Shown here one piece after another: positions 10,859-14,743 of a stretch of 41,912 nt of DNA. The notes under the pieces are model-generated. The model saw only the letters and a list, made by a program, of their open reading frames with translations, made no database searches and was not told where the DNA came from. A program made the position numbers and the translations under genes. This DNA is from an uncultured Acetobacteraceae bacterium (GTDB taxonomy: Bacteria; Pseudomonadota; Alphaproteobacteria; Acetobacterales; Acetobacteraceae), in NCBI GenBank assembly GCA_937873225.1, contig CALMVN010000273.1:26295-68206 (forward strand), read 5' to 3'. Numbering within the stretch: position 1 is the stretch's first letter; the number at the start of each line of letters is the position of its first letter.

Positions 10859-11084
10859 TTTCACGGCGACGCTGCGGACCCGGAACGTTCCGCCCCCGGA
10901 TAGCGGGACAATGCTGCGGTTCCGGGCGCCCGGCACCGACCAGGGCCCATAGGGCCTCGCGCGTCCGCCTGGGGCCCATGCGATCGGGACGGCAGACAGG
11001 AGCCTCCATCGCGAGGTGTGGCACGAACCGTCGGGGCGGCAAGGGCGTTCCCTCCGGTCGCCATCGCTGCACCAGAGGCCAGGC

Positions 11085-11645
11085 TTGCCACGTCCCGTCA
11101 CCGCGTTCCGTCACCTGCTGCCCATCCTGCTGCCGCTGCTCGGCGCCTGCGCGGTCGAGGATTCGGACGTCGCCGAGCACGCGCAGAAGCGCCTGATCGG
11201 CCTGAGCGAGGTCGACCTGGAATCCTGCCTCGGCGTGCCCGACCAGCACGCGAGCTTCGGCGGCACCGACGTGCTGACCTACTACGCCACCTCCAGCAGC
11301 TCCACGAGCTACGCGGTGCCGATCGTCGGCGGCCTCGGGCTGTCGAACGGCGGCTACTGCCATGCGACGTTCCGGGTCGATGACGGGCGCGTCAGCCGGC
11401 TGCTGTACTCGGGCGAGAAGAACGCGACGCTGGCGCCCAGCTCCTATTGCGCGCCGATCGTGCGCACCTGCCTGGCCTGGCTCGACCGGCATCCGGTGCA
11501 GGCCGGTGCCGTCGGCACGCCCAGCTACCGGGCCGGCAGCGCGGGCCAAAGCGCGGTCGCGCCGGGCAGCCCGAGCGGCGCGCCGCAACCGGGCGCGTCC
11601 AACGCCGCCATGCCGGCCAACGTGCCGACCGCCACCCCGCGCTGA
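11085..11645 (+). CDS. Putative lipoprotein, BamE/SmpA-like pattern
   Basis: A secretion signal ends in a lipobox (LPLLGAC), so the mature protein probably begins at that Cys and is lipid-anchored. A stretch of about 100 residues follows (RLIGLSEVDLESCLGVPDQ, a TYYA strand, then CHATFRVDDGRVSRLLYSG) that recalls the helix-turn-strand layout of BamE/SmpA small lipoproteins. This is inference from pattern only. The C-terminal 45 residues are Ala/Pro/Gly-rich and look disordered. A TTG start at 11085 places a normal-length signal after a purine-rich AGAGGCCAGG; the track's 11016 start adds an unlikely Arg-rich leader. It is the first of three co-oriented genes with the bestrophin and carbonic anhydrase. 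Confidence 0.72.
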   Translation: MPRPVTAFRHLLPILLPLLGACAVEDSDVAEHAQKRLIGLSEVDLESCLGVPDQHASFGGTDVLTYYATSSSSTSYAVPIVGGLGLSNGGYCHATFRVDDGRVSRLLYSGEKNATLAPSSYCAPIVRTCLAWLDRHPVQAGAVGTPSYRAGSAGQSAVAPGSPSGAPQPGASNAAMPANVPTATPR

Positions 11646-11703
11646 AAGCCGGTCACGGGAGGATGCCGCCTGCCATGCGATCCGTTCCACGAGGTCCGGG
11701 CCG

Positions 11704-12579
11704 GTGATCGCCGATCGCCGCGCCGGGATGCGCATCCTGGTCCGCGAAAGCGTGCGCCCGCTGCTGGCACTGTTCGCCTGGGACGTGGTGGTGGTTCTCG
11801 CCTTCCAGCTCGCGCACCGTTCCTGGATGGACCAGCCGGCGCTGCCGTTCTCGCTGATCGGCTCCGCCCTGGTGCTGTTCCTGAACGTGCGCAACACCGC
11901 CGCCTACAACCGCTGGTGGGAGGCGCGCACGCTGTGGGGGGCGGTCACCAACAACGCCCGAAGCTTCGCGCGGCAGATGCAATCGCTGCTCGGCGGCGCG
12001 CCGGAGCTGACGCGGGCGATGATCGGCTACGCCCACGCGCTCCGCGGCGCGCTGGCCGGCGCGGACGTGTCGGGAACGGTGGAAGCGCTGCTGACGCCGG
12101 AGCTGGCGGGCCGGGTGGCCGGGCTCCGCAACCGGCCCACGGCGCTGCTGTTCGAGATCGGCGTGGCGGTGCGGGTCCTGGCCGAGGCCCGCGGCGTCCA
12201 TCCCGCGGCACAGGCCGGGATCGACCGCATCCTGTCCGACCTCGCCAACGCGCAGGGCGGGCTGGAGCGCATCCGCAACACCCCGCTGGCGGTGCAGTTC
12301 TCGGTCCTGCCCTGGCTGCTGGTGCGGGTGTTCTGCCTGGTGCTGCCGCTTTCGATGGTGCAGGAGCTGGGCTGGATCACCCCGCTCGGCTCGACCGTGG
12401 TGGGCTTCCTGTTCGTGGCGCTGGACGAGATCGGCGCCGACCTGGAAGCGCCGTTCGCGCCCGGCCTGCACGCGGTGCCGATGGCGGCGATCACCCGCAC
12501 GATCGAGATCGACCTGAGGCAAGCGATCGGCGATCCTGCGCCGGAGCCGATGCAGCCGGTGGACGGCGTGCTGGCATGA
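11704..12579 (+). CDS. Bestrophin-family ion channel
   Basis: Inner-membrane protein of the bestrophin (RFP-TM, YneE-like) family, 291 aa. Recognisable pieces are the N-terminal helix pair (LLALFAWDVVVVLAF; LPFSLIGSALVLFLNVRNTAAYNRWWEAR split), the RIRNTPLAVQFS segment and the C-terminal FLFVALDEIGADLEAPF block, where the acidic patch corresponds to the family's cytosolic gate or Ca site region. Bacterial members form pentameric channels. The GTG at 11704 has GAGG upstream; an ATG at 11728 is possible. The track's 11362 start overlaps the lipoprotein in another frame and is rejected. It sits 25 bp upstream of a carbonic anhydrase gene, which suggests a link to bicarbonate. Confidence 0.87.
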   Translation: MIADRRAGMRILVRESVRPLLALFAWDVVVVLAFQLAHRSWMDQPALPFSLIGSALVLFLNVRNTAAYNRWWEARTLWGAVTNNARSFARQMQSLLGGAPELTRAMIGYAHALRGALAGADVSGTVEALLTPELAGRVAGLRNRPTALLFEIGVAVRVLAEARGVHPAAQAGIDRILSDLANAQGGLERIRNTPLAVQFSVLPWLLVRVFCLVLPLSMVQELGWITPLGSTVVGFLFVALDEIGADLEAPFAPGLHAVPMAAITRTIEIDLRQAIGDPAPEPMQPVDGVLA

Positions 12580-12604
12580 GGCTCGTCTTCGAGGGGAGGT
12601 CCGC

Positions 12605-13228
12605 ATGGCATCCGCGCCGCTGCCGCATGAGCCGGTCACGCCCGACCAGGCGCTCGCCCGGCTGAAGGAGGGGAACCGCCGCCACCTCAGCGGCGAGGCG
12701 ATCCACCACCGGATGACCAGCCAGGAGCGCCGCGCCGCCCTTGCGCAGGAACAGCGCCCGTTCTGCGTGCTGGTCGGCTGCTCCGACAGCCGGGTGCCGC
12801 CGGAGGTGCTGTTCGGCTGCGGCCTGGGCGAGCTGTTCATCGTCCGCAACGCCGGCAACGTGGTCGACCTCGCCGCCATGGGCAGCATCGAGTACGGCGT
12901 CGTGGTGCTCGGCGCGCCGCTGGTGGTGGTGCTGGGACACGAGCGCTGCGGCGCGGTGCAGGCCGCGGTCAACGTGGTGGAGACGGACGCGACCTATCCC
13001 GGCAGCATCGGCCAGATGATCGAGCCGATCATCCCCGCGGTGCTGCGGGCGCGGCGGGACGGACCGGACAACCTCCTCGACCGCTCGGTGGAGCAGAACG
13101 TCCTGCGCATCGTCGCCCGGCTCCGCAACACCGAGCAGCTGCTGATCGAGCCGCAGCGCGAGGGCCGGCTGAAGATCGTGGGCGCGCGCTACGACCTCGA
13201 CGACGGAAGCGTGGAGTTCTACGAGTAG
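12605..13228 (+). CDS. Beta-class carbonic anhydrase
   Basis: Zinc enzyme interconverting CO2 and bicarbonate, 207 aa. The zinc ligands sit in the CSDSR motif (first Cys and Asp/Arg dyad, near residue 59) and in the distal HERCG motif (His and Cys near residue 115). FIVRNAGNVV between them is also diagnostic. The ATG is preceded by GAGGGGAGG at good spacing. No signal peptide is visible, so it is cytoplasmic. It is the last gene of the lipoprotein-bestrophin-CA trio and is followed directly by a GC-rich hairpin. Confidence 0.95.
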   Translation: MASAPLPHEPVTPDQALARLKEGNRRHLSGEAIHHRMTSQERRAALAQEQRPFCVLVGCSDSRVPPEVLFGCGLGELFIVRNAGNVVDLAAMGSIEYGVVVLGAPLVVVLGHERCGAVQAAVNVVETDATYPGSIGQMIEPIIPAVLRARRDGPDNLLDRSVEQNVLRIVARLRNTEQLLIEPQREGRLKIVGARYDLDDGSVEFYE

Positions 13229-13229
13229 C

Positions 13230-13247
13230 CGTCCGGCCGGCCGGACG
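13230..13247. terminator. GC-rich hairpin after the carbonic anhydrase gene
   Basis: CGTCCGGCCGGCCGGACG is a perfect palindrome starting two bases after the stop codon. It can fold as a 7-bp stem with a CCGG loop. It lies between convergent genes and could end transcription from either side. There is no T-tract, so factor-independent termination is uncertain. Confidence 0.5.
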
Positions 13248-13286
13248 AGCCGGACGCCGACAAACGCGGCGCCCGGCGTCGCGGTC

Positions 13287-13487
13287 TCAGTAGTAGCGGT
13301 AGTAGTGGTGGTGGTAGCGGTCCCAGGCCCAGGCGCGATGGTGCCAATGGTGACCGTGGTAGTAGTAGTGCGGCCCGACCCAGCCCGGCGGCACCGGCTG
13401 CGCCTGGGCGAGCGGCATCGCCGCCAGGGTCGCGACCGCGGCCGCCGCGGCCAGAACGGAACGCCTGAGGTTCCGACGGAAGTCCAT
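13287..13487 (-). CDS. Small secreted His/Tyr-rich protein
   Basis: Sixty-six residues: a signal peptide (RRSVLAAAAAVATLAAMPLAQAQ) and a mature peptide of about 40 residues dominated by His, Tyr and Trp (runs such as HYYYHGHHWHH and YHHHYYRYY). The ATG at 13487 has AGGAGA at ideal spacing, whereas the track's longer start has none. Composition suggests metal binding (Zn, Cu or Ni) or a surface/envelope role, but no family function is known to me. It is encoded convergently with the carbonic anhydrase gene. Confidence 0.72.
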   Translation of the reverse strand: MDFRRNLRRSVLAAAAAVATLAAMPLAQAQPVPPGWVGPHYYYHGHHWHHRAWAWDRYHHHYYRYY

Positions 13488-13633: not shown

Positions 13634-14743
13634 TCAACCGGACGCGGCACCCACCGTTCCGGCTCCCGCCGCCGCATGCCGCTCCGCCGGCTCCGGCATC
13701 AGCGCGGCGGCAACGTCGGCGACGTCCCGGCTGAGCATCTGCAGGGTGAAGCGGGCCAGCGGCCCGGCCTCATCGCCCAGCCGGTCGAGCCTACCGGACA
13801 GGGCACGCGCCTCGAACACCAGCCGTCCGGCACCAGGCCCGCGCGACTGCGCTTCCCCGTCGAGTGCCGCCTGCAGCGACCGGAACGCCGCCGACACCGC
13901 CGTCGACACCTCGGCCAGGGACGGCGGCGGCCCGTCCGTCGCCGCGGTCTCGCCCAGGGCGCGCGCGACGAACAGCACGTCGCTCTGCAGGCGACGCAGC
14001 ATCGGCACCAGCCGCTCCATCAGCGGGTCGTGCCGTTCCACCACCGCGAAGCGCTCGCGGTTGGCCTCGGTGATCGCCGCCACCAGCGCCCGCAGCGCGT
14101 CGTTGCTGCTGTCGTTCAGCCGCTCGACCTCGTCCATCGCCACCCGCCGGGTCAGCACCGCCGCCTGGGTGGCGTCCACCGTGGCCAGCATGTCGGAGGC
14201 GGCCTTGAAGGCGAGCTGCCGGGCGCGGGTGCGGAACACCAGGTAGGACACCGCCAGCGACACCACCGCCCCCACCAGGATCGCCAGCACGCGGTCGACC
14301 GGACGGCTGAACGCCCCGCCCTGCGCCGGGAACAGGAACACCACCACCAGGGTGACGCCGGCCAGGCGCAGGTTCGGCTTGAACGCGGCCAGCAGCGCCA
14401 GCGGCACCAGCAGCACGGCGAACACCGGCACCTTGGGCAGCCCGGCGAGCCACAGCGCGATCCCGGCCGCCCCGGCGAGGGCGCCGACCAGCGTGCCGAT
14501 GATCTGGTCGCGGCCGGCTTCCAGGGTCGAGCTGATCCGGGCCTGGGTGACGATCACCGCGGTGATCAGCGCCCAGTAGGGTTCGCGCAGGTGCAGCGCC
14601 TGCGCGACCAGGTCGGACAGGAACACCGAGACCAGGGTGCGGACCGCCTGCCGCAGCTCCGGGGTCCAGCCGAGGATCCGGTCCCAGGCCGGGGCGAGGC
14701 GGCCGGTCCGCCCGGGCTCTTGCCGGACAGCGTGGTCGGACAT
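13634..14743 (-). CDS. FUSC-family membrane protein (aromatic acid exporter-like)
   Basis: Membrane protein of 369 aa with the FUSC architecture. About six helices lie in the first 190 residues (e.g. LREPYWALITAVIVTQARIS, FAVLLVPLALLAAF, LAILVGAVVSLAVSYLVF, read in parts), followed by a long cytosolic helical domain (residues 190-350). The PYWA...TAVIV...GRxxGT-type segment is the family hallmark (AGRDQIIGTLVGALAG here). Members export aromatic acids or act in envelope stress; the substrate is unknown. It begins 9 bp downstream of the degP stop and is probably in the same transcript. Confidence 0.86.
   Translation of the reverse strand: MSDHAVRQEPGRTGRLAPAWDRILGWTPELRQAVRTLVSVFLSDLVAQALHLREPYWALITAVIVTQARISSTLEAGRDQIIGTLVGALAGAAGIALWLAGLPKVPVFAVLLVPLALLAAFKPNLRLAGVTLVVVFLFPAQGGAFSRPVDRVLAILVGAVVSLAVSYLVFRTRARQLAFKAASDMLATVDATQAAVLTRRVAMDEVERLNDSSNDALRALVAAITEANRERFAVVERHDPLMERLVPMLRRLQSDVLFVARALGETAATDGPPPSLAEVSTAVSAAFRSLQAALDGEAQSRGPGAGRLVFEARALSGRLDRLGDEAGPLARFTLQMLSRDVADVAAALMPEPAERHAAAGAGTVGAASG

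Follow-up and report, generated by a model that had tools for sequence, protein, structure and literature searches.

A bestrophin–carbonic anhydrase gene pair in an uncultured Acetobacteraceae bacterium is a reversed example of an association found repeatedly in distant bacteria

A stretch of 41,912 nucleotides from an uncultured Acetobacteraceae bacterium (hereafter the window) carries a gene for a bestrophin-family channel next to a gene for a beta-carbonic anhydrase (CA). The pair is specific to this genome and its gene order is reversed, but bestrophin and CA genes have repeatedly become neighbours in distant bacteria. The recurrence is real and far above chance, and because the adjacency has arisen independently in other lineages we read the two genes as a functional pair. 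We propose, with middling confidence, that they encode a two-part bicarbonate-handling unit acting as a CO2/bicarbonate and pH valve.

Gene content of the window

The preliminary description of this DNA had placed a bestrophin gene and a beta-CA gene 25 bp apart on the same strand; the coordinates and spacing proved exact, and profile searches confirmed both gene products (Table 1). The bestrophin matched the Bestrophin_2 profile PF25539 with an E value of 3.6e-61, scoring 207.6 bits against a profile cut-off of 27 and covering profile positions 25-287 of 288, and its residues 21-285 aligned with the solved Klebsiella bestrophin KpBest (4wd7; E 1.3e-34). The older model PF01062 gave no match to this protein, a search that was uninformative because the control genomes also gave zero PF01062 matches. 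PF25539 is the right model for the window bestrophin, a predicted ion channel encoded by the one Bestrophin_2 gene of the genome (G000). The second protein matched the Pro_CA profile PF00484 (E 8e-40), and its closest solved structure was 1ym3 (E 3e-44). In the alignment to 1ym3 the CSDSR and HERCG motifs, which hold the zinc ligands (Cys-His-Cys) and the catalytic Asp/Arg dyad of a beta-CA, were both intact. With its active-site motifs complete, the protein is predicted to interconvert CO2 and bicarbonate; no signal peptide is evident, and we take the enzyme to be cytoplasmic. The genome encodes two beta-CAs of different subtypes, one of which belongs to the subtype of the window CA in the CA tree.

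Inside the spacer, GGGGAGG forms a strong Shine-Dalgarno sequence ahead of the CA start codon. Judged from its length, the spacer is too short to hold a separate promoter plus terminator, and we infer that the bestrophin and CA genes are co-transcribed. Scanning positions 10900-13400 returned no promoter- or terminator-like site, a result that says little in a high-GC genome, and promoter, terminator and hairpin scans near the pair were all treated as uninformative. Between the CA and FUSC genes, a short ORF combines a signal-peptide-like start with a His/Tyr-rich tail (YYYHGHHWHHRAWAWDRYHHHYYRYY) and had no Pfam or NCBIfam match.

Table 1. Features of the window, and bestrophin loci in other genomes and plasmids
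Feature	Position or source	Strand	Details
Lipoprotein-like gene	11085-11645		Ends 58 bp upstream of bestrophin gene
Bestrophin_2-family channel gene	11704..12579	+	291 aa, GTG start, stop ends 12579
Bestrophin-CA spacer	12580..12604	+	25 bp
Beta-CA gene	12605..13228	+	207 aa, ATG start
Short ORF	13287-13487	-	66 residues
FUSC gene	13634-14743		Downstream of pair
CA-linked loci, Acetobacteraceae	G010 (two loci), G043, G045, G486, G503, G597
CA-linked loci, other genomes	G272, G131, G406
CA-linked loci, one genus	G330, G257, G170, G1138		4/4 species
CA-linked loci, Burkholderiales plasmids	Comamonadaceae OTU4NAUVB1, Caballeronia zhejiangensis
CA-linked locus, Cytophagales MAG	L027
Dyp-type peroxidase, encapsulin shell protein and bestrophin genes (L274)	Paracoccus sp. 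MA plasmid NZ_CP087599.1, 1082-3825		In a row, gaps <10 bp

Origin of the pair in the window

The pair fills a variable slot that the lipoprotein gene bounds on one side and the FUSC gene on the other. In three congeners (G002, G003 and G004) these two genes are also neighbours, with other material and no pair between them, the slot measuring ~0.36 kb in G002, ~0.67 kb in G004 and 1.5 kb in G003, where it contains a DHDPS-like ORF; in G001 the lipoprotein and FUSC genes lie ~10 kb apart. Across loci L288, L289, L290 and the window, slot contents differ from congener to congener, as at a variable insertion site. The lipoprotein gene does precede the pair, as had been described, but we rejected it as a member of the module: it is kept beside FUSC in congeners that lack the pair, and so belongs to the locus. 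CAs related to that of the window are present in G001, G002 and G003, away from the bestrophins of those genomes, so that genes at separate loci in congeners occupy one site in G000, a relocation relative to the congeners. In gene trees both window proteins group with congener proteins, and the pair consequently looks like native genes brought together in the variable slot, not like a foreign import.

The bestrophin tree puts the window in a well-supported clade of 36 acetic-acid-bacterium representatives, its congeners among them; no other member of this clade has a CA next to its bestrophin, and this exact pair thus occurs in a single genome there. No acetic-acid bacterium among the named relatives had a CA beside its bestrophin, the distant Cytophagales MAG L027 being the only such case there. 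From the named-genome scan alone no conservation was apparent, and recurrence became visible only in whole-genome scans that included both families. By sequence reading, the bestrophin genes of acetic-acid bacteria have other neighbours: in 23 loci (e.g. L034, L006 and L043) a conserved CarD-like gene follows directly downstream in the same orientation, and in 19 loci a gene resembling S-(hydroxymethyl)glutathione dehydrogenase lies upstream and is divergently oriented.

The window adjacency might be a chance relocation into a variable slot, with no functional meaning here even if the operons elsewhere have one. This is the only genome of its clade to carry the pair, the gene order is reversed, the contents of the slot differ in G002, G003 and G004, and the probability of one such adjacency arising by chance in a clade of 36 is ~0.03, which for the window alone is suggestive, not decisive. 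Against chance stand the 25-bp spacing with its good ribosome-binding site, the presence at one site of two native genes that lie apart in congeners, and the pairing of the same gene families elsewhere, and we regard a meaningless relocation as highly unlikely.

Recurrence of the pairing across bacteria

Bestrophin_2 genes were searched for in 100 relatives and in 387 class, 398 family and 398 phylum genomes (sets that overlap), and the flanking DNA was examined for representative matches. The profile scan yielded 229 bestrophin loci, some genomes being counted twice, to which plasmid records and one later locus were added; the survey leans toward Pseudomonadota, and a neighbour can be missed where a contig ends. 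Besides the window, a CA gene sits immediately upstream of the bestrophin gene, in the same orientation, at 17 loci (Table 1). They are spread over several alphaproteobacterial families, two Burkholderiales plasmids and a Cytophagales MAG, and include families f10, f16, f72 and f111 (4/4 species sampled) as well as several Acetobacteraceae genera. The linked CA of G597 is truncated by the contig end, and G057, whose CA lies ~1.1 kb off on the opposite strand, was left out of the count. Start and stop codons overlap by 4 bp (ATGA/GTGA) in L115, L118, L135, L136 and L267, a geometry typical of translational coupling, and the other CA-bestrophin junctions range from -1 to +15 bp, or from 40 to 94 bp in the genus of G330 and in L072. 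The window shares adjacency and strand with these loci but not order, since in it the bestrophin precedes the CA, whereas every other same-strand pair has the CA first. The preliminary description had suggested a functional pairing and proposed counting adjacencies across genomes; that count bears out the pairing through its independent, above-chance recurrence in other bacteria, but not through conservation in the clade of the window or among its own orthologues.

No annotated CA lay beside the plasmid-borne bestrophins of Sphingomonas, Rhizobium, Caulobacter, Hymenobacter, Aureibacter, Spirosoma, Variovorax, Paracoccus and Haliscomenobacter; a Persicobacter record, which is unannotated, was left out of this judgement. 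The Paracoccus row of peroxidase, encapsulin and bestrophin genes is another possible bestrophin partnership. In six genomes with the pair (G043, G272, G330, G257, G170 and G406) the linked CA was the sole beta-CA found, and the pair there thus includes the main beta-CA of the cell. One bestrophin of the CA-linked alpha lineage (locus L074 of G355) comes from a genome in which a beta-CA was not found; the partner may have been lost or may belong to another CA class.

Among representatives taken at 90% identity, the bestrophin tree separated a clade A, with 14 of 76 members linked to a CA, from a clade B, with none linked among 92. The linked lineages of clade A comprise alpha families, an Acetobacteraceae/Comamonadaceae clade, Caballeronia, L027 and the window, and the linked Caballeronia bestrophin sits beside unlinked Sphingomonadaceae and Rhizobium bestrophins. 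Linkage state changed a minimum of 6-7 times on the trees, a count that cannot tell gain from loss and that includes some long branches, L027 among them. A single clade of all linked bestrophins was rejected (AU p 6e-4), as was one uniting the window, the other linked Acetobacteraceae and L267 (AU p 8e-38), both groups having been named after tree inspection. These phylogenies indicate that CA-bestrophin linkage arose at least four times. The linked CAs themselves fall in two deep beta-CA subtypes: that of G045 belongs to the subtype of the window CA, but the CAs next to its sister bestrophins belong to the other, and so the CA partner appears to have been exchanged there while linkage and order were retained. 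By chance, 0.06 adjacencies would be expected among the 76 representatives, with a probability of 4e-7 for four or more, taking 1.33 CAs per family genome and an assumed ~3500 genes.

Pore residues and the conducted ion

Read from the alignment to KpBest, the window bestrophin has S/L/V at the neck positions I62/I66/F70 and A at the aperture position I180, and so does not have the hydrophobic three-residue neck (I/I/F or I/F/F). That neck is a trait of characterised bestrophins and not part of the PF25539 profile; the S/L/V neck is, as far as an alignment can tell, a variant pore inside the Bestrophin_2 family and not grounds for exclusion from it. Neck position 1 is S or T in the tabulated clade A groups, except for the alpha lineage, which keeps I, and is hydrophobic in 92/92 clade B members. 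Since the S/T neck is common to CA-linked and unlinked members, it marks clade A and not CA linkage.

The bestrophin may instead pass another ion, such as chloride or a cation, with the CA linked to it through a common stress (pH or an osmotic shift) and no flux of bicarbonate. KpBest (4wd7 and the 6iv series), with which it aligns over ~265 residues at E 1e-34, is reported as a Na+ channel in which the I66F neck change favours chloride (PMC8496536). Laboratory evolution tied a bestrophin homologue of Methylobacterium, BesA, to chloride export; chloride is its hypothesised substrate, and in the part of the source available to us CA pairing is not mentioned (PMC4271186). The Paracoccus locus likewise indicates that the family has other partners. 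The repeated independent pairing with a CA, the translational-coupling geometry and the variety of CA subtypes point to a shared substrate, however, and neck position 1, with its S or T in clade A outside the alpha lineage, is unlike that of KpBest, whose hydrophobic neck is matched in clade B, where no CA linkage occurs. We consider conduction of another ion unlikely. Human bestrophins have a P(HCO3)/P(Cl) of 0.44-0.69 (PMC8496536), and bicarbonate permeation together with pH/CO2 homeostasis remains plausible for the window protein.

Proposed role in bicarbonate handling

For a bicarbonate valve, we postulate that the cytoplasmic beta-CA would interconvert CO2 and bicarbonate (with H+) and that the bestrophin would act as a passive inner-membrane channel for bicarbonate, and perhaps for chloride too, the CA supplying or clearing bicarbonate at the inner mouth of the channel. 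The inside-negative membrane potential would drive net anion flow outward through such a channel, so that CO2 hydrated inside could exit as bicarbonate while the proton is retained, making the unit a valve and not a carbon-concentrating pump. Because membrane energetics favour outward bicarbonate flow, we prefer a valve that brings CO2 and bicarbonate to equilibrium and adjusts pH; bicarbonate as the substrate, the direction of flow and any physical contact between the two proteins would follow from this model. Most bestrophins, including the whole of clade B and the larger part of clade A, are unlinked, and CA pairing is therefore not needed for bestrophin function generally. The Na+ selectivity reported for KpBest, the nearest characterised bacterial bestrophin (PMC8496536), and the reversed gene order in the window also count against the valve.

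Bicarbonate import offers a different account, modelled on algae. In Chlamydomonas, bestrophins of the thylakoid are proposed to supply a CA with bicarbonate, where BST1-3 would work with the lumenal CAH3 (PMC6708349), and a bacterial bestrophin could similarly admit external bicarbonate, from which the CA would make CO2 or keep a pool for carboxylases or RuBisCO. RuBisCO-level matches to PF00016 (E ~1e-134) were found only in four CA-linked Acetobacteraceae (G043, G045, G503 and G597), and the six genomes in which the linked CA is the sole beta-CA also fit import. The profile detected no RuBisCO in the window genome or in G272, G131, G330, G257 and G170, however, and matched only more weakly (E ~1e-65) in G406 and G486. 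In algae, moreover, a pH gradient generated by light drives transport through the channel into an acidic lumen, whereas a passive anion channel in a bacterium would mostly leak bicarbonate outward. The analogy with algal carbon concentration raised in the preliminary description is accordingly weak as a general role, RuBisCO being missing here and in most linked non-Acetobacteraceae genomes, and passive anion inflow against an inside-negative potential being unfavourable. Carbon concentration could serve some hosts but is not the common role, and we judge import an improbable explanation of the pair.

What the algal and bacterial systems have in common is a bestrophin-family channel thought to act with a CA on bicarbonate. 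Since that partnership is known, the window pair would be its bacterial version. The algal one operates in an organelle, with the CA across the membrane, a light-driven pH gradient and RuBisCO present, while in the present genome the channel is a bacterial Bestrophin_2 protein, the CA shows no evident signal for export and RuBisCO is lacking. Bestrophin and CA are also co-expressed in BEST4+/CA7+ cells of the animal intestine, where, as far as the portion of the report available to us goes, an animal channel is linked to the enzyme by cell type and not by operon (PMC11371329). A survey of the open-access literature, with subscription papers outside its reach, found no paper on a bacterial bestrophin-CA operon.

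Bacteria also join a bicarbonate transporter to a CA in SulP transporter-CA fusions. These differ from the window pair in being fusions built on a secondary transporter of another fold, where the window has a channel gene and a CA gene, unfused.

Significance for bacterial bestrophins

The ions that bacterial bestrophins conduct in the cell are poorly known, and the recurrent pairing with a CA suggests that the bestrophin carries bicarbonate, naming it as a substrate for which the natural CA-bestrophin operons form a test set. More tentatively than for the window pair itself, we suggest that the bestrophins of clade A, whose neck is altered except in the alpha lineage, conduct bicarbonate and work with a dedicated cytoplasmic beta-CA as a CO2/bicarbonate valve in non-autotrophs; evolution would have put this pairing together repeatedly in bacteria and, on a separate occasion, in algae. 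If so, the bestrophin-CA partnership of algae and animals would extend to heterotrophic bacteria, and these operons would be a source of small bacterial channels suited to structural studies of bicarbonate selectivity.
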